Source: Actinomycetota bacterium
GTDB taxonomy: Bacteria > Actinomycetota > Acidimicrobiia > Acidimicrobiales > Ilumatobacteraceae
Direction of reading: 5' to 3'
Length of the DNA: 33,550 nt
Assembly (NCBI GenBank): GCA_009701715.1
Contig: WLJO01000027.1
Coordinates: 1-33,550, forward strand
Shown one piece after another: positions 21,265 through 27,903 of the stretch (the stretch's first letter is position 1; each line of letters opens with the position of its first letter). The notes beneath the pieces are model-generated. The model made no database searches. It saw nothing but the letters and a program-made list of their open reading frames with translations, and was not told where the DNA came from. Made by a program: the position numbers and the translations under genes.

Positions 21265-22415
21265 CTGCGGTTCGATCGGCCTCGGTGCTGCGCGAGCGGT
21301 GGACGAGGCTTGGCGCGATCGTGTGTGTCGTTGCGCTCGTGCTCGTGGCGGTGCTGGCTGCGGTGGGCGTGCGAACGCTTGCCAATTCCAAGGCCGGGCA
21401 GAACGCAAGCTCGCTGCCGCCCGCCGAGGCGCTGCCCCGCACGGAGGCCGCGCTCTTGGCCGTCAAGGCCGACACCGGCGCGCTCGCCGCGCTCGTCGTT
21501 CTCGCAAAGGCTGCCCCGGGCAGCGACGGCAAGTCCCGGGGCGGGGCGATCATCCCGATTCCGGTCGGGTCCGGCATCCAGTTCGGCAAGAACCCGTCGC
21601 TCAGCCGCCTCGCCGAGCTGTATCTCGCCGGTGGTCTCGCTGCGCTCGCGGAACAGGCCGGCAGTCTCCTGTCGATCACGTTCTCGGTGGTCGCCGAACT
21701 CGATGCGCCCGCAGCGACCCAGTTGCTTACTCCGGCTGGCACGGTCACCATCCGTCAGTCGGCGGGCAACCAGCCGTTCGGTCCCGCCGCTGCCGCCACG
21801 ATGCTCGCCACGCAGAGCGCACGACTCGAGGGCCCGCACTTCGCCTCGACGGTTGCCTACTGGACCGGGCTCGCGCAGCGGGTGGGCAAGGGGCTGTCGT
21901 TCAGCGGTTCGCAGACCACGGGTGCCATCACCCGTTTCTTCGACTCGATCCTGGCCGGGCCGATCAGCGTGTATCCCATCAACGGGTCCAAGGTTCCTCA
22001 GGGCGACGCAAACCCGAACAACTCCGACGTCTATCGGCTGGACCGGGCCGAACTCGACCGTGTACTCGGCCTCGTGCTCTCGAACACCTTCTCGCCGGTG
22101 GACGCGCAGTTCACTGCTCGCGTCGTGAACCCGACCGGCGACCCCGACGTCACACTCGCTGCGATCCGCAAGATCCGGGCGGCCGGCGGGGCGGTGACGA
22201 TCGTGGATGAGACCAAGGGCGAACTGCCCGCACAGACCGAGTTCTCGTTGACCGGTCGCCTCGAGCGGGCGGACGTCAAGTTGTTCGCCAAGGAGTTCGG
22301 TCTGACCACCTTCGAGTCGGTAGCGGAGCCCGGTGAGCGCCACATGCGGTACGTGGATATTGACCTCACGGTGGTGATTGGTGCCGGGTTCAAGCAGACT
22401 GGTGCATCGAAATGA
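21261..22415 (+). CDS. Membrane-anchored LytR_C-domain protein, possible degenerate LCP
   Basis: This 384-residue protein has one N-terminal membrane segment (about residues 17-38, GAIVCVVALVLVAVLAAVGV) and otherwise an extracytoplasmic body. The C-terminal part, from ARVVNPTGDPDVTLAAIRKI to DIDLTVVIGAGF, fits the LytR_C domain found behind LytR-CpsA-Psr (LCP) domains. The middle (about 60-250), with LAELYLAGGLAALAEQAGSLLSI and a following VTI strand, keeps the LCP outline. However, I cannot find the conserved Arg/Asp cluster of active LCP ligases, which attach polymers to peptidoglycan. It may therefore be a non-catalytic envelope protein. It overlaps nadD and rsfS by ATGA at both ends. Confidence 0.75.
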   Translation: MTAVRSASVLRERWTRLGAIVCVVALVLVAVLAAVGVRTLANSKAGQNASSLPPAEALPRTEAALLAVKADTGALAALVVLAKAAPGSDGKSRGGAIIPIPVGSGIQFGKNPSLSRLAELYLAGGLAALAEQAGSLLSITFSVVAELDAPAATQLLTPAGTVTIRQSAGNQPFGPAAAATMLATQSARLEGPHFASTVAYWTGLAQRVGKGLSFSGSQTTGAITRFFDSILAGPISVYPINGSKVPQGDANPNNSDVYRLDRAELDRVLGLVLSNTFSPVDAQFTARVVNPTGDPDVTLAAIRKIRAAGGAVTIVDETKGELPAQTEFSLTGRLERADVKLFAKEFGLTTFESVAEPGERHMRYVDIDLTVVIGAGFKQTGASK

Positions 22416-22801
22416 CCACTGACACCACGCCCACCGCCAACCCTGCTGCCGAAGTCGCCATTGCCGCGGCCCGCGCTATCGACGACAAGAAGGGTGAGGA
22501 CATCACGATTCTCGAGGTGGGCCCGATCCTCGGGATCACCGAGTTGTTCGTGATCACGTCTGCGCCCAACAGCCGTCTCGTGCGCTCGATCGTCGACGAG
22601 GTGGAGGAGCAGGTGTTCGTGCTGTTCGAGCGCCGCCCGCTTCGTATCGAGGGCCTGAACGACCGCCAGTGGGTGCTCATGGACTACGGCGACGTGATCG
22701 TGCACGTGTTCGCCGACGAGGCCCGACGGTTCTACGAGATCGAGCGCCTGTACAAAGACGTGCCGCGCGTGGAGTGGCAGCCGGTGGCCGACGCCGGATA
22801 G
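22412..22801 (+). CDS. rsfS: Ribosomal silencing factor RsfS
   Basis: This 129-residue protein binds ribosomal protein uL14 on the large subunit and blocks subunit joining, slowing translation when nutrients are short. The family core is clear: AARAIDDKKGEDITILEVG, TELFVITSAPNSRLVRSIVDEVEE, then the signature W-V-L-M-D-Y-G-D-V-I-V-H-V-F and the terminal FYEIERLYKD-type motif. Its ATG overlaps the stop of the LytR_C gene (ATGA), so it is the third gene of the nadD unit. Confidence 0.95.
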   Translation: MTTDTTPTANPAAEVAIAAARAIDDKKGEDITILEVGPILGITELFVITSAPNSRLVRSIVDEVEEQVFVLFERRPLRIEGLNDRQWVLMDYGDVIVHVFADEARRFYEIERLYKDVPRVEWQPVADAG

Positions 22802-22894
22802 GCGTAGTCCGGCAGCGTGACCGGTGGCTCGTGTGGCAGCCGTCACGATCGGGAACTTGCACACTGCACACAGCGTTTCAACCCACGAAGCGCT

Positions 22895-23479
22895 ATGTCA
22901 GACACCTCGCTCACCGGAGCCATCGATACCGGACGCATCTCCAAGATCGCCGGACAACCCGTCACGGTGACTGTGTCGCGCACTCCGCTGCTTGGGCGTG
23001 AGGTGCAGTTTGAGCAGTGGGCTGAGCGTGCCGTGCAGGTGCTGGACCGGTTCCCCGGAAGCCTCGGCATCGGAGTACTTCGCCCCGGCACCGCCGGTGG
23101 TGAGTGGCACATGGTGTTTCGCTTCGCCGACGGGCTTGCACTGCGAAATTGGGAACGGTCGCCACAGCGTGCCGCGCTTCAGGCGGAACTGGCCGGAGTG
23201 GCTGAGGACATGAAGGTGCAACGCACGGTGGGCGTGGACAACTGGTTCGACCTGCCCGAGCGCGCCCTTCCGAGAGCTGGTTTTGTGAGGCGATTGCTCG
23301 GCGACGCGCTCTGGGTGTACCCGGTGTCGTTGGCTATGGCCGTGCTCGTGGCGCCGATGCTCGCCCCCATGGCACTCTGGCTGCGGGTACTGGTTTCCGG
23401 TGTCGCCGTCGGTCTCGTCAGCCACCTGACGGTGCGGCCACTGCGCAACCGACTCAGGCGCCGCCGTCAGTTTGCGTAA
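22895..23479 (+). CDS. ABM-domain protein with two C-terminal membrane segments
   Basis: This 194-residue protein has an N-terminal antibiotic-biosynthesis-monooxygenase-like domain (about residues 22-105). It contains VTVTVSRTPLLGREVQFEQW, the helix QWAERAVQVLDRFPG and GEWHMVFRFADGLALRNW. Two hydrophobic segments (about 140-182) and a basic tail RPLRNRLRRRRQ follow. ABM proteins with this tail form a distinct membrane-tethered subgroup whose chemistry is unknown; the fold is related to the DUF1330 and EthD proteins near the left end. I chose ATG 22895; GTG 22817 is in frame and would add 26 residues. Neither has a clear ribosome site. It lies 93 bp after rsfS, probably as a separate unit. 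Confidence 0.78.
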   Translation: MSDTSLTGAIDTGRISKIAGQPVTVTVSRTPLLGREVQFEQWAERAVQVLDRFPGSLGIGVLRPGTAGGEWHMVFRFADGLALRNWERSPQRAALQAELAGVAEDMKVQRTVGVDNWFDLPERALPRAGFVRRLLGDALWVYPVSLAMAVLVAPMLAPMALWLRVLVSGVAVGLVSHLTVRPLRNRLRRRRQFA

Positions 23480-23495: not shown

Positions 23496-23524
23496 TTGGA
23501 ACGTCCGGGGGCCGTTGGTAGCCT
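23496..23524 (+). promoter_or_regulatory. Promoter of the tRNA-Ala gene
   Basis: TTGGAA (23496-23501) and TAGCCT (23519-23524) are separated by 17 bp. Transcription would begin near 23531, about nine bases before the mature tRNA 5' end. It is the best two-part promoter in the window. Confidence 0.7.
23504..23518 (+). repeat. 15-bp direct repeat, copy 1
   Basis: TCCGGGGGCCGTTGG fills most of the spacer of the tRNA-Ala promoter. An identical copy lies at 23670-23684, just past the tRNA terminator, so the tRNA cassette is bracketed by the repeat. Confidence 0.8.
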
Positions 23525-23539: not shown

Positions 23540-23612
23540 GGGGCTGTGGCTCAGTTGGTAGAGCGTCTCCATGGCATGGAGAAGGTCAGGGGTTCGATTC
23601 CCCTCAGCTCCA
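23540..23612 (+). tRNA. tRNA-Ala (anticodon GGC)
   Basis: The cloverleaf is complete. The acceptor GGGGCTG pairs with CAGCTCC (one G-T pair), the D-arm is GCTC/GAGC, and the anticodon stem TCTCC/GGAGA encloses the loop ATGGCAT with anticodon GGC at 23573-23575. The variable loop is AGGTC and the T-arm is AGGGG-TTCGATT-CCCCT. The discriminator base is A. CCA is not encoded. Anticodon GGC reads GCC and GCT alanine codons. Confidence 0.97.
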
Positions 23613-23618
23613 CAAAGA

Positions 23619-23662
23619 AAGCCCTGCTCAGAGGCCACGAACGTGGTTGATGGGCAGGGCTT
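23619..23662 (+). terminator. Terminator-like hairpin after tRNA-Ala
   Basis: AAGCCCTGC (23619-23627) pairs with GCAGGGCTT (23654-23662), and an inner hairpin CCACG/CGTGG (23635-23646) sits in the loop. CTTCTTCC follows instead of a pure T-run. It starts seven bases after the tRNA. Confidence 0.65.
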
Positions 23663-23669
23663 CTTCCGT

Positions 23670-23684
23670 TCCGGGGGCCGTTGG
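23670..23684 (+). repeat. 15-bp direct repeat, copy 2
   Basis: This is an exact copy of TCCGGGGGCCGTTGG from the tRNA promoter spacer, 166 bp downstream. The flanking -35 and -10 bases are not conserved, so it looks like a remnant rather than a second promoter. Confidence 0.8.
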
Positions 23685-23693
23685 GCCAATGTT

Positions 23694-23721
23694 GTATACC
23701 CACGTATCTTTTACGGTATAC
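23694..23721. repeat. Inverted repeat in AT-richer spacer
   Basis: GTATACC (23694-23700) and GGTATAC (23715-23721) form 7-bp arms around a 14-base loop that holds a further CGTA/TACG pair. A second inverted repeat, CAACCAC/GTGGTTG (23730-23748), follows at once. Both may be binding or recombination sites; no owner gene is visible. Between 23749 and 23943 I see only short hairpins and no gene. Confidence 0.5.
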
Positions 23722-23943
23722 GGAGTCAACAACCACAGACGGTGGTTGCCGCCGGTCGTGCACGTCGGGTTCCTCGAGGCACAACTCTGACCAAACCGCT
23801 GCTGCTTTAGCGGCCCGTCTACATCCGCTTAGGCGGGGTCAGCGATGCAGAGATTATTCCGGTGATCTGTCCGGGCAATGGTCCGGTATTGCCGAGTTCG
23901 CTGATTGGGTGTTCGCAGCCGGTGTCGGTGTATGACCTCGTCG

Positions 23944-23949
23944 TAGTGT
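23944..23949 (+). promoter_or_regulatory. -10 element before the GIY-YIG-like remnant
   Basis: TAGTGT ends 6 bases before ATG 23956, the same leaderless arrangement as at intact genes. The promoter thus seems to have outlived the gene it served. Confidence 0.45.
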
Positions 23950-23955
23950 GAGCGC

Positions 23956-24129
23956 ATGGAGGCTCAAGCAGACCTTCGATTGCTGGAGGCACCGCTCCTG
24001 AGCAGTGCCGAAGTGTCGGCTTCACCGTGCCCGGTACCGGCAGCAACTGGCGTGTACGGCTGGTGGTTCTCCGAGATTCCCGACGGCGTCCCAACCGACT
24101 GGACCCTCCTACCCACGGTCCAACCCTGA
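23956..24129 (+). pseudogene. Truncated GIY-YIG-like protein, N-terminal fragment
   Basis: This 57-codon frame reads MEAQADLRLLEAP, then SPCPVPAATGVYGWWFSEIP and DGVPTDW before a stop at 24127. The G-V-Y-G-W-W-F and I-P-D-G-V-P segments resemble the N-terminus of actinobacterial GIY-YIG-type nucleases, in which a second motif with L-Y-V-G would follow after a dozen or so residues. That second motif and the rest of the domain are absent from all frames downstream, so the gene is broken. Its leaderless-type promoter is kept. It lies in the scrap zone behind the tRNA. The family call rests on a short stretch. Confidence 0.5.
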
Positions 24130-24228
24130 AACGCGAAGCGCCACTTATTCACACAGCACCTACCTACACCTCATGTTTGAACACCGTGTCCTCCGCATCT
24201 CTCAGCCAGCACGACAAGGATCACCTCA

Positions 24229-24978
24229 ATGCGAATTATTAGCCGACGACCGGCTCGCCTGGCCGGAGGGGTGGTGATTGCGCTGCTCGGCGTGACGGGA
24301 TGTGTCAACAAAGGGCCGCAACTTGACGCAAGACCGCTTTCGGACCGCACTGCTATCGCAGGCGCGCCCGTGAGTCTTTCGACTTCGTGGTGGCGCTCTG
24401 CCCAGGAAGCATCGCCGTCGACGCATTGGAGGGTGAACGGCGTTCCAGAGGCTCAGAACACCGTGTTCGTTGTTGGGAAGGTTTTGTCCGTTGACGCCGG
24501 GTTCGGACTTGGCAAAGCGGCTAGCGAGCCGCGGGTCGGAAGTGACAGTTCTCCCGGAGAAGGCGTGGTTACGTTCAATTCCAAAGACTCGGTCGTGGAC
24601 GTCGTCATCATCAGCTTGGAGGTTCGCGATGGCGTAGCCGAAAGCGGTGATATGCCCGCACAGGTACGAATCGCCTTGCCTCTCCCCGCACCCACTGATC
24701 TGGCGAGTCTGCGCACTGAGTTAGACGAGATTGGTTCGTTCGCCGCCGTTCTATTTCCGGCGGTCGGCATGGCGGTTGAGCCCGGTCTCTACGAGATCCT
24801 CGACGGGCGGTACCTCGGTGCCATTAGCGACGATGGCGCGACGATCACGTTCGGCGATCTAATGCGCGGCCCTGACCCGGCGAAAGCTGTAGAGGTCGTG
24901 ACTGTCGCCAAGATGATCGCTGGTTCAGGCACGATCGCGTTAGTGAATGCTGGCGGTGAACGTGCACTCGACGGCTGA
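24229..24978 (+). CDS. Uncharacterised lipoprotein
   Basis: This 249-residue protein has a lipoprotein signal: basic MRIISRRPARL, a hydrophobic core GGVVIALLGV and a lipobox ending TGC with C25. The mature part is not recognised. It has few cysteines, is rich in V, A and D, and has alternating strands (FVVGKVLSVDAGF, VVDVVIISLEVRDG, QVRIALPLPAPTDL, GLYEILDGRYLGAI) that suggest a beta-sandwich. ATG 24229 has AAGGA about ten bases upstream. By eye its GC content is lower than that of the flanking core genes. It lies between the tRNA-Ala gene and the tRNA fragment, consistent with acquired DNA. The function is unknown. Confidence 0.72.
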   Translation: MRIISRRPARLAGGVVIALLGVTGCVNKGPQLDARPLSDRTAIAGAPVSLSTSWWRSAQEASPSTHWRVNGVPEAQNTVFVVGKVLSVDAGFGLGKAASEPRVGSDSSPGEGVVTFNSKDSVVDVVIISLEVRDGVAESGDMPAQVRIALPLPAPTDLASLRTELDEIGSFAAVLFPAVGMAVEPGLYEILDGRYLGAISDDGATITFGDLMRGPDPAKAVEVVTVAKMIAGSGTIALVNAGGERALDG

Positions 24979-25134
24979 GTAACCACGCGTACTCCCGCGA
25001 TTGCTGTGCAATAATTTGTGCCGGCCTAATGGTGTTCCGGCGTGATCGAGCAGGGCAGCGTCACAGGTCAGCGCTCGAGCCGCTCTGCTTATTCGCGACG
25101 CTTCCGAAGCGCCCTGATACGGGCTCTCGGCGTT

Positions 25135-25230
25135 TCAGGGTGGAGTGATGGTGTCGAGTAGGTGCCAGTTGGGTTTGCCGGCGTAGAGCAGGGCGCGGAT
25201 GCGGTAATGAACCGGCGGGGGTTGGCGCAT
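25135..25230 (-). pseudogene. Possible ISL3-type transposase C-terminal remnant
   Basis: A 31-codon minus-strand frame ends HYRIRALLYAGKPNW followed by HLLDTITPP and a stop. The H-Y-R-[IL]-R-x-L-L core resembles the extreme C-terminus of some ISL3-family transposases. Nothing upstream in frame continues the match, no terminal repeats are visible, and the match is short, so this is a tentative call. Confidence 0.3.
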
Positions 25231-25280
25231 CGTGCGCTCCCGTTGATTTGCGATCCCCCGTCGGGAGGGACTCTTTACTG

Positions 25281-25315
25281 CTCCATGGCATGGAGAAGGT
25301 CAGGGGTTCGATTCC
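25281..25315 (+). repeat. 35-bp copy of the tRNA-Ala 3' half (att-like)
   Basis: The 35 bases are identical to 23567-23601 of the tRNA-Ala gene, from the anticodon stem through the T-loop. The copy stops before the acceptor strand and cannot form a tRNA. It is joined directly to a segment (25314-25337) that resembles 23733-23755 near the intact tRNA. It is 1,714 bp away from the tRNA copy and in the same orientation. Confidence 0.92.
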
Positions 25316-25347
25316 ACAGATGGTGGTTGACCTCCGGCGTGGCCGGC

Positions 25348-26424
25348 CTAGGCCGAGAGCACCCGACGTCGCCGCGTCACGACGAGCAGGCCGCCGGCGG
25401 CAAGGAACACGACTGCGGCTGCGATAAACCCGTCCGTGTCCGCACCGGTAGGCGGAAGTACCGGTGGTTCGCTACCGGTTGAGGTTTGGGTGAACGCCTG
25501 AAGGTTGCCGGCTTGATCCTTGAACCGGCCGGCGGCGGTGCAGTATCCGGCCGGTGTGCACGACACCGACTTGAAGTATGCGTTCGGGGCGGCGTTCTGG
25601 ATGTCGGTTGTGAAGGTTGCGGGGACGGCGTTGCCCCAGGTGCCACCGGTCGAGGACTGTGTGAACGCCTGAGTGTTCCCGCCTTGATCCTTGAAGGCGC
25701 CGGCAGCGGTGCAGTTCCCCGCCGATGCGCACGACACCGAGTTGAAGTAGGCGTACGGGGCGGCGTTCTGGATGCCGGCCGCGTAGGTTGCGGGGACGGC
25801 GTTGCCCCAGGTGCCACCGGTCGAGGTTTGGGTGAACGCCTGAAAGTTCCCGGCAAGATCCTTGAACCTGCCGGCAGCGGTGCAGTTCCCTGCCGATGCG
25901 CACGACACCGAACTGAAGTATGCGAACGGGGCGGCGCTCTGGAGGCCAGCCGCGAGGGTGACGGGGACGGCGTTGCCCCAGGTGCCACTGGTTGAGGTTT
26001 GGGTGAACGCCTGAAGGTTCCCGGCGAGATCCTTGAACCGGCCGGCAGCGGTGCAGTTCCCCGTCGATGCACACGACACCGTGTCGAACCGTGCGTACGG
26101 GGCGGCGTACTGGACATTCGTCGCGAAGGTGGCGGGGACGGCGTTACCCCAGGTGCCACTGGTTGAGGTTTGGGTGAACGCCTGAGTGTTCCCGGCAAGA
26201 TCCTTGAAGCTTCCGGCGGCGGTGCAGTGCCCGGCCGACACGCACGACACCGAGTTCAACTGTGCGGTCGGAGCGGCGTTCTGGATGTCCGCTGCGAAGG
26301 TGGCGGGGGTAGCGTCACCCCAGATCGGGCCCGAGTCCGCCACTGCTACGGCCGGAACCGCCAGCACTGCGCCGGCCAACAACCCGACAACACCAACTAC
26401 ACGCACGACTCGAGCAACGTTCAC
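25348..26424 (-). CDS. LPPTG-anchored surface protein with five 57-residue repeats
   Basis: This 358-residue secreted protein starts with a signal peptide (residues 1 to about 29, VVGVVGLLAGAVLAVPAVAVA). Five tandem 57-residue units (residues 34-318) follow. Each contains W-G-[ND]-A, then S-V-S-C, then a second cysteine in G-N-C-T-A-A-G, and ends Q-A-F-T-Q-T-S-T. Similar SVSC...C repeats are common in actinobacterial exported proteins and may form a propeller. The C-terminal 36 residues hold LPPTG (323-327), a hydrophobic stretch and TRRRR, a sortase sorting signal. The start GTG 26424 has TGGGGG upstream. The last 36 residues parallel those of the protein at 27995-30259. Ligand and function are unknown. 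Confidence 0.88.
   Translation of the reverse strand: MNVARVVRVVGVVGLLAGAVLAVPAVAVADSGPIWGDATPATFAADIQNAAPTAQLNSVSCVSAGHCTAAGSFKDLAGNTQAFTQTSTSGTWGNAVPATFATNVQYAAPYARFDTVSCASTGNCTAAGRFKDLAGNLQAFTQTSTSGTWGNAVPVTLAAGLQSAAPFAYFSSVSCASAGNCTAAGRFKDLAGNFQAFTQTSTGGTWGNAVPATYAAGIQNAAPYAYFNSVSCASAGNCTAAGAFKDQGGNTQAFTQSSTGGTWGNAVPATFTTDIQNAAPNAYFKSVSCTPAGYCTAAGRFKDQAGNLQAFTQTSTGSEPPVLPPTGADTDGFIAAAVVFLAAGGLLVVTRRRRVLSA
25471..26325 (-). repeat. Five tandem 171-bp coding repeats
   Basis: The repeat unit is 171 bp at DNA level. For example, GTTGCCCCAGGTGCCA recurs every 171 bases (near 25630, 25801, 25972; near-copy at 26143). Units 2-5 are close to identical at many positions while the first unit is more diverged, which points to recent amplification. 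Confidence 0.88.
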
Positions 26425-26634: not shown

Positions 26635-27903
26635 ATGGAAACGTCAAATCAACGCTCGTCACAGGTCCGCACGGTCTCAAGAACTCGACGAATTCGTTCG
26701 GTTGGCGCCGTTTCGGCGGCTCTGGCACTCGTTGCCACTGCTTGTGGAGTGGACCGGCTTGACTCGCTCCCGGTGGCGGGGGAGAGCGGTCGCAGTTATG
26801 AAGTCGTTGCTTGGGGCCTCAACAGCCCCCGCGGTCTCGCTGTGGGCGCCAACGGCGACGTCTACGTGTCCGAGGCCGGGTCGCTCGGCGAGGACTGCGT
26901 CAACCCGAAAGACGGACCCTGCTTCGGGTTCACCAGTGCGATCCAGCGGTACACGGGCCTCGGCACGGCGACCTCCTCTCGGGAGACGCTCGCCTCGGGC
27001 ATCGTGTCCATGGCCATGCTTCGCCCCGAGGGCCCAGAGGTGCTCGGTGTTGCCGGCATCGACCTCACCGACGAAGGCGAACTCGTCGGCATCATGATGT
27101 TCTCCGACCCCGGTATCCGCTCACGGTTTACGGCAACCAATCCGCCCTATGTCCCGGCGGCAGGTTTGGATGCGGCGATCACGGGTTACGCCGGTCGGCT
27201 GATTTCGGTCGGCGACAGCGGCCCGATGCGCGTGCTCGCCGATGTCGGTGGCGAGAGCTACGCGTGGACGACCAAGAACAAGGACCAGTCCTGGGCGCCC
27301 GATGGCCAGTTCCCCGATTCGAATCCGTATGGGGTGCTCGCGGACACCGAAGGCCGGATCTGGGTGGCTGATGCCGGGGCCAACACCATCGTGCTGGTGC
27401 AGGAGCAGGGTGGCAAGTACACCCAGAAGCTCGTGGCCTACATCCCCAACCCGGTGACCGGTAGCGACGCTGTACCGACATGCCTCGCACGGCAGGGTGA
27501 CTGGATGTACATCGGCACCCTGGACTTCGCGGGCAACTTCGGTGGGGCCGAGCCGGCGTCGATCGTGTTCCGCATCAACGTGAACGCAACCGATCCGTTC
27601 ACGGCGGCCGAGGTGTGGGCCGGGGGCTTCGACCCGATCACGGGATGCGCGATCATCAACGGTTCGCTCTACGTCTCGGAGTGGGCAACCAAGGCAACCA
27701 AGTACGAGTTCGGTGCAGTGGTGCGGATTCCGATTAAGTCCGACGGCTCGGCGGGTACCCGCAGAGTGATCGCTGACGATCTGGTGCAGCCCGCCGACAT
27801 CGCGGCGCTCGGCAACCGGATCCTCGTGGTGAACCACAGCATCTCGCCCGCCGGCAGTGGCCCCGGCGAACCCGGTGGCCAGATCGTTCGACTGTTCGGC
27901 TGA
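26635..27903 (+). CDS. ScyD/ScyE-family beta-propeller lipoprotein
   Basis: This 422-residue exported protein has a long basic N-terminus, a hydrophobic segment (SVGAVSAALALVA) and a lipobox ending TAC with C37. The mature part opens VVAWGLNSPRGLAVGANGDVYVSEAG and later has NPYGVLADTEGRIWVADAGANTIV and QPADIAALGNRILVVNH, which is the blade pattern of the ScyD/ScyE propeller family. Members near scytonemin genes gave the family its name, but most actinobacterial members have no known role. Cysteines at CVNPKDGPC could form a disulfide. It lies between two LPPTG proteins, divergent from one and convergent with the other across a strong terminator. Confidence 0.85.
   Translation: METSNQRSSQVRTVSRTRRIRSVGAVSAALALVATACGVDRLDSLPVAGESGRSYEVVAWGLNSPRGLAVGANGDVYVSEAGSLGEDCVNPKDGPCFGFTSAIQRYTGLGTATSSRETLASGIVSMAMLRPEGPEVLGVAGIDLTDEGELVGIMMFSDPGIRSRFTATNPPYVPAAGLDAAITGYAGRLISVGDSGPMRVLADVGGESYAWTTKNKDQSWAPDGQFPDSNPYGVLADTEGRIWVADAGANTIVLVQEQGGKYTQKLVAYIPNPVTGSDAVPTCLARQGDWMYIGTLDFAGNFGGAEPASIVFRINVNATDPFTAAEVWAGGFDPITGCAIINGSLYVSEWATKATKYEFGAVVRIPIKSDGSAGTRRVIADDLVQPADIAALGNRILVVNHSISPAGSGPGEPGGQIVRLFG

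Follow-up and report, generated by a model that had tools for sequence, protein, structure and literature searches.

Islands integrated at tRNA genes are recognized by the Islander criteria, which, in the excerpts of their description cited here, call for a same-orientation 3′ tRNA fragment downstream that reaches the tRNA end or one known deletion site, a non-Xer tyrosine integrase inside, and a length of 2 to 200 kb (PMC4383910). Such islands can also lose the integrity of their att sites and become fixed, as the excerpted account of the GI-pheV islands of Escherichia coli that are without attR describes (PMC11537424). For actinobacteria, the excerpted part of an ICE survey places none of its actinomycete-type class in Acidimicrobidae (PMC3218068), and our literature search turned up no publication on tRNA-Ala(GGC) elements for the Acidimicrobi group.

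The locus described here lies in a 33,550-nucleotide stretch of DNA (the window) from a member of the Ilumatobacteraceae. The sole tRNA gene that ARAGORN finds in the window is an intact tRNA-Ala(GGC) (23540-23613, plus strand), which we presume to be attB/attL. A reading of the letters without database searches (the sequence-only reading) had reported a perfect 35-bp direct copy of part of this gene 1,714 bp downstream, and we confirm it: tRNA positions 28 to 62 (23567-23601) recur at 25281-25315 on the same strand, the two copies being identical, in direct orientation and 1,714 bp apart from start to start. The distal copy is thus a 3′ part of the tRNA lying downstream of the intact gene with its orientation unchanged, and it ends at tRNA position 62, with positions 63 to 74 absent; we presume it to be a damaged attR. 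A chance origin of the repeat is rejected by the perfect match and by the expected count: a search of the window with the final 18 bp that tolerated up to 3 mismatches gave two occurrences, where 0.02 are expected. No third copy of the 35-bp core is present in the window.

With an Islander island, as characterized in the excerpted text, the interval between the tRNA end and the distal copy (23614-25280, 1,667 bp) shares an intact tRNA gene, a same-orientation partial copy downstream and foreign-looking DNA in between. However, it has no integrase, is shorter than 2 kb, and its fragment ends at position 62 of 74. Because it fails the integrase, length and fragment-end filters, it is probably a remnant only, and we do not file it as an Islander-class island. 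It is similar to the GI-pheV islands in its loss of att integrity, whereas these, according to the same excerpted account, are much larger and recognized by a retained integrase. On balance, we read 23614-25280 as a decayed tRNA-Ala(GGC) integrative element whose integrase has been replaced by ISL3 scars.

The DNA between the repeats has, as had been proposed, a lower GC content: 0.605 for the interval versus a mean of 0.660 for the contig's overlapping 1,667-bp windows, among which it falls in the lowest 0.8%. It contains one open gene, which encodes a lipoprotein of 249 amino acids (24229-24978, plus strand; lipobox recognized by eye). The GC3 of this gene (0.64) is below that of the eleven other frames measured (0.72 to 0.89). 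At the limits used, the protein falls in no family of Pfam, PHROGs, NCBIfam or PADLOC, and it has no match in plasmids, phages or viral contigs. Five frames of the island were tried for relaxase or transfer genes, without a Pfam match. Among plasmids, the island DNA matches a single record, a Streptomyces plasmid, and the match is confined to an ISL3 stub; in phages, the left 617 bases of the island have no match.

A pair of ISL3 right ends, inverted in their order, surrounds the lipoprotein gene. The first (24095-24148, plus strand) is 94% identical to the ISL3 right end on contig C48 of the same genome. The second (25120-25209, minus strand), which had been taken for a possible transposase tail and can now be identified, is 94% identical to a right end on C24 and 84 to 85% identical to those on C90 and C34, and it lies 71 bp from the distal tRNA fragment. 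The family assignment comes from the complete copy on C90 (NF033550, E = 9.8e−79), one of two full ISL3 transposases in the genome, the other being on C48. The window holds right-end stubs only, with no ISL3 bodies or left ends, so neither stub is part of a complete element. Elsewhere in the genome, another bodiless right-end stub is found on C34 (88889-88976), and perhaps a fourth on C48 (L056, 141-185), where the similarity is weak (80% over 45 bp). The stub at 24095 also accounts for part of the open frame at 23956-24129 (plus strand), which the sequence-only reading took for a broken GIY-YIG-like gene. The frame exists, but its GIY-YIG identity is unsupported: it has no Pfam match at E ≤ 10, and in PHROGs it matches only a family of unknown function (E = 0.18). 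It is a hybrid in which 47 codons, whose residues occur in the genome of the window and in no other of 61 genomes searched, are fused to an ISL3 transposase tail (24095-24129).

As the sequence-only reading had noted, no recombinase lies between the repeats: none was found in the window. An integrase pseudogene was rejected as well, since a profile built from six integrases gave no trace of one in the window. The genome (97.35% complete, 96 contigs) has two PF00589 hits, both on other contigs. One of these genes comes after a putative NUDIX-like gene and the other adjoins putative rpsB and dprA-like genes; by their neighbor genes, the two proteins look like XerD and XerC, respectively.

A search for the tRNA region matched 58 of 61 genomes, and among the matches listed there are at least five partial copies that start at tRNA positions 28 to 31, namely those of the window and of genomes G013, G020, G023 and G028. 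A pattern scan of viral contigs yielded two stretches. One is an intact tRNA gene within a tRNA array, on a 199-kb IMG/VR contig (L067) where 25 tRNA genes, tRNA-Ala(GGC) included, are packed into about 4 kb; the other is a partial copy, on IMGVR_UViG_3300045141_000297. The copies in G013, G020, G023, G028 and the viral contig all reach the tRNA 3′ end, and in all five a tyrosine-integrase stretch, confirmed by PF00589, lies 5′ of the fragment and starts about 25 to 340 bp from it. This stretch has no internal stops in G013, G020, G023 and the viral contig and two in G028. The search of relatives that had been suggested, for an integrase using tRNA-Ala(GGC), thus led to integrases beside partial copies of this gene in four family genomes and a viral contig, so that the family shows a link between predicted tyrosine integrases and this tRNA. 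These elements have the target gene and the 5′ core boundary (positions 28 to 31) in common with the window, whose copy begins at position 28, like that of G013. They differ from the window in that they retain the tRNA 3′ end as well as an integrase, which in G028 is broken, and their flanks are unrelated to the window's. In G023, TrwC-relaxase matches lie 2.5 to 4.8 kb beyond the tRNA-Ala(GGC) gene. Two contigs of G023 (C21, L012, and C7, L075) carry an identical tRNA-Ala(GGC) and the same 40 bp upstream, but their similarity ends some 27 bp past the tRNA; the site looks as if it were filled differently within the sampled population.

The 3′ side of tRNA-Ala(GGC) is a variable locus. The recurrent order is rsfS, tRNA-Ala(GGC), leuS, and the distance from the tRNA to leuS ranges widely in those six of the 14 stretches L038-L051 that extend to leuS on the 3′ side: 1.2 kb in G033, 1.8 kb in G022, 4.2 kb in G002, 5.3 kb in G011, 6.6 kb in G024 and 9.8 kb in G001. 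Because leuS is not reached in the window, its gap there exceeds 9.9 kb. In L077 and L102, leuS is on the opposite side of the tRNA; no leuS was detected in L071, L072, L075 and L076. L102 comes from a third genome with an identical tRNA, which is oriented opposite to rsfS. On the left flank of the window are rsfS, encoding the ribosomal silencing factor (22412-22801, plus strand; PF02410, E = 4.7e−28), which is conserved upstream of the tRNA in relatives too, and an ABM-domain gene (22817-23479, plus strand; PF03992, E = 7.5e−6). On the right flank are a gene for a repeat-rich surface protein with an LPXTG-like anchor (25348-26424, minus strand; PF00746, E = 3.8e−4) and an NHL/ScyD-ScyE family gene (26635-27903, plus strand; NF033206, E = 2.9e−41). 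Within the surface protein gene, on the minus strand, a 300-nt reference occurs in four copies spaced 171 bp apart (25471-26283).

A core arrangement of the genus, which the sequence-only reading had raised as an explanation against an element, was rejected. In G001 and G002, the other two members of the genus compared, the window arrangement is absent and other genes stand beside the tRNA, so it is not core. In G001, the tRNA is followed by an Lsr2 gene, a glycosyltransferase and then the acyl-CoA dehydrogenase region, which the window also has. In G002, it is followed by an arylmalonate-decarboxylase-like gene, a tautomerase and then an NHL gene that it has in common with the window (64% identity). 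The Lsr2-like gene of G001 (L038, 12730-13158) is near tRNA-Ala(GGC), where the window has its island.

The lipoprotein gene is itself sporadic, being found in 4 of 149 genomes and in 7 of 397 genomes of the order, with the window's own genome counted in both. One homologue, with 28% identity to the window's protein, is located in G028 (C497; L085, 301-8006) between a TrwC relaxase (PF08751, E = 2.4e−72) and an integrase beside tRNA-Gly(CCC), and this locus is a mobile element. It resembles the window in its lipoprotein homologue and differs from it in the tRNA gene and in the presence of relaxase and integrase. Six other homologue loci (two in G378 and one each in G326, G049, G325 and G146) were searched with three integrase queries and a relaxase query, and none matched at 1e−6, a threshold at which diverged integrases may escape; homologue loci in G061, in G300 and at a second place in G049 fall outside this six-locus search. 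One of the six has a tRNA gene, a tRNA-Arg in G378 (C14). Since these six loci gave no integrase or relaxase matches, the link between this cargo and mobility comes from one case, that of G028.

We favor a decayed integrative element because the orientation and the boundary of the fragment are right and because relatives keep integrases beside such fragments. The low GC content, the variable 3′ side of the tRNA, the sporadic lipoprotein and the relaxase links in G028 and G023 also count for it. The repeat, its boundary, the ISL3 stubs, the relatives' integrases beside tRNA copies and the variability of the locus are observed directly, and the history that joins them can be proposed as follows. 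Recombination by a tyrosine integrase, which for this copy we infer, would have placed an element in tRNA-Ala(GGC), leaving the intact tRNA as attL and the 35-bp fragment as attR. The attR would then have been damaged, presumably at a later time, and its tRNA 3′ end lost. ISL3 insertions and deletions may have removed the integrase gene from where the second stub now stands, a position at which related elements still have theirs. The element would thereby have lost its capacity for self-movement and retained one cargo gene, that of the lipoprotein.

Several observations count against this history. The distal copy stops at position 62, so there is no clean displaced 3′ end. The intact tRNA looks undisturbed because a full terminator adjoins it, whereas a terminator-like sequence, recognized by eye, lies 3′ of the displaced fragment in G013 and G020 (but not in G023 and G028). 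In the window, the terminator is a strong predicted hairpin directly 3′ of the tRNA (23614-23662, plus strand); the fold of 23614-23680 has a z-score of −4.35, and none of 200 shuffles is equally stable. The absence of an integrase trace also weighs against a decayed element, as does the likeness between the flanks of the window's two copies and those of known att sites, which is no greater than in 30 shuffles. Among 221 family genomes, the exact pattern of the 3′-truncated copy occurs in one, that of the window itself, and this counts against such an element too.

A further difficulty is a second block of similarity, block Y, which lies 3′ of the core on both sides and is unpredicted by simple integration. 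The distal core had been described as fused to a sequence resembling 23733-23755, and this holds with slightly wider limits: 23733-23760 and 25314-25341, both on the plus strand, match in 25 of 29 columns, with 2 mismatches and 2 gaps. Without the two bases that it has in common with the core, the block scores 14, which none of 500 dinucleotide shuffles reaches (largest score, 12.5). The spacing from core to block Y is 131 bp on the proximal side, taken up by the tRNA 3′ end, the strong terminator and more, and the distal pair abuts. Deletion of 133 bp between two CC dinucleotides of the proximal arrangement would give nearly the distal one. We prefer this deletion to a 10-nt slippage between two TCC triplets, which was rejected, because the deletion accounts for both the truncated tRNA end and block Y and the slippage only for the former. 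No similarity was found before the core or past block Y. For a decayed element, block Y would need two related elements arrayed in tandem, with the distal site as the inner junction, or alternatively an attP carrying sequence of this same locus. A palindrome of block Y was also sought in viral contigs; it occurs in four stretches, whose fetched parts have no tRNA, and we took these matches as chance.

Because of block Y, of the complete terminator that adjoins the intact tRNA and of the absent tRNA 3′ end, a segmental duplication that needs no integrase is a serious rival, although we regard it as rather unlikely. By this account, DNA that begins at tRNA position 28 and extends to 23760 or further was duplicated about 1.7 kb downstream, the copy lost the 133 bp between the CC dinucleotides, so that its core was joined to block Y, and IS insertions and a foreign gene filled the space. 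Such an event would explain why two colinear blocks are common to both places and why the core, when joined to the sequence from 23735, closely resembles the distal junction. A local rearrangement is also indicated by the terminator at the intact tRNA together with a 15-bp sequence in front of the tRNA, on its promoter side (23504-23518, plus strand), that recurs just after it (23670-23684, plus strand); this perfect repeat brackets tRNA and terminator, and 1 of 500 shuffles is as good. By eye, its upstream copy is partly present upstream of the tRNA in G001 and G002. What weakens a duplication is that its 5′ boundary falls at position 28, within the 28-31 range of the five integrase-linked copies, that similarity ends at block Y and at the core start, and that integrases lie beside copies of tRNA-Ala(GGC) in the family. 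Thus, local duplication, which the sequence-only reading had named as the explanation to set against an element, gains a second colinear block and a terminator in its favor and has the boundary and the family integrases against it.

A quite improbable origin is ISL3 transposition or an IS-mediated rearrangement that carried a piece of the tRNA region with the lipoprotein gene and left the fragment as a by-product. It would fit the two inverted-order right ends around that gene and the recurrence of right-end stubs in the genome, but the right ends are without bodies or left ends, and the tRNA fragment lies outside the stub pair, 71 bp beyond the second stub, where no IS boundary touches it.

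The sequence-only reading had offered, beside a decayed integrative element, a satellite moved by an integrase in trans; the former is the better supported of the two, through the relatives' integrases and the same 5′ boundary, and the latter is weak. We consider it most improbable both that the two cores of a minimal satellite are still recombined in trans by the integrase of a co-resident phage or element and, at a similarly slight chance, that the interval is an integrase-less 1.7-kb cassette with one lipoprotein between tRNA-Ala(GGC) cores, moved by visiting integrases of the family: a core that is perfect over 35 bp and the integrases linked to tRNA-Ala(GGC) copies in the family and the viral contig speak for a satellite, but the only two PF00589 proteins of the 97.35%-complete genome are both Xer-like by neighbors, exchange would not rebuild the tRNA 3′ end from the distal copy, the ISL3 stubs on either side of the cargo suggest decay, and the exact distal-junction pattern has no matches in viral contigs.

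The remnant itself is an ordinary kind of genome fossil, and its host is an uncultured actinobacterium. The locus points to tRNA-Ala(GGC), between rsfS and leuS, as an integration hotspot in a group for which the ICE survey cited above lists no actinomycete-type ICEs. The probable remnant in the window may illustrate a route of decay in which the integrase is lost, IS stubs are left and one cargo gene is kept.
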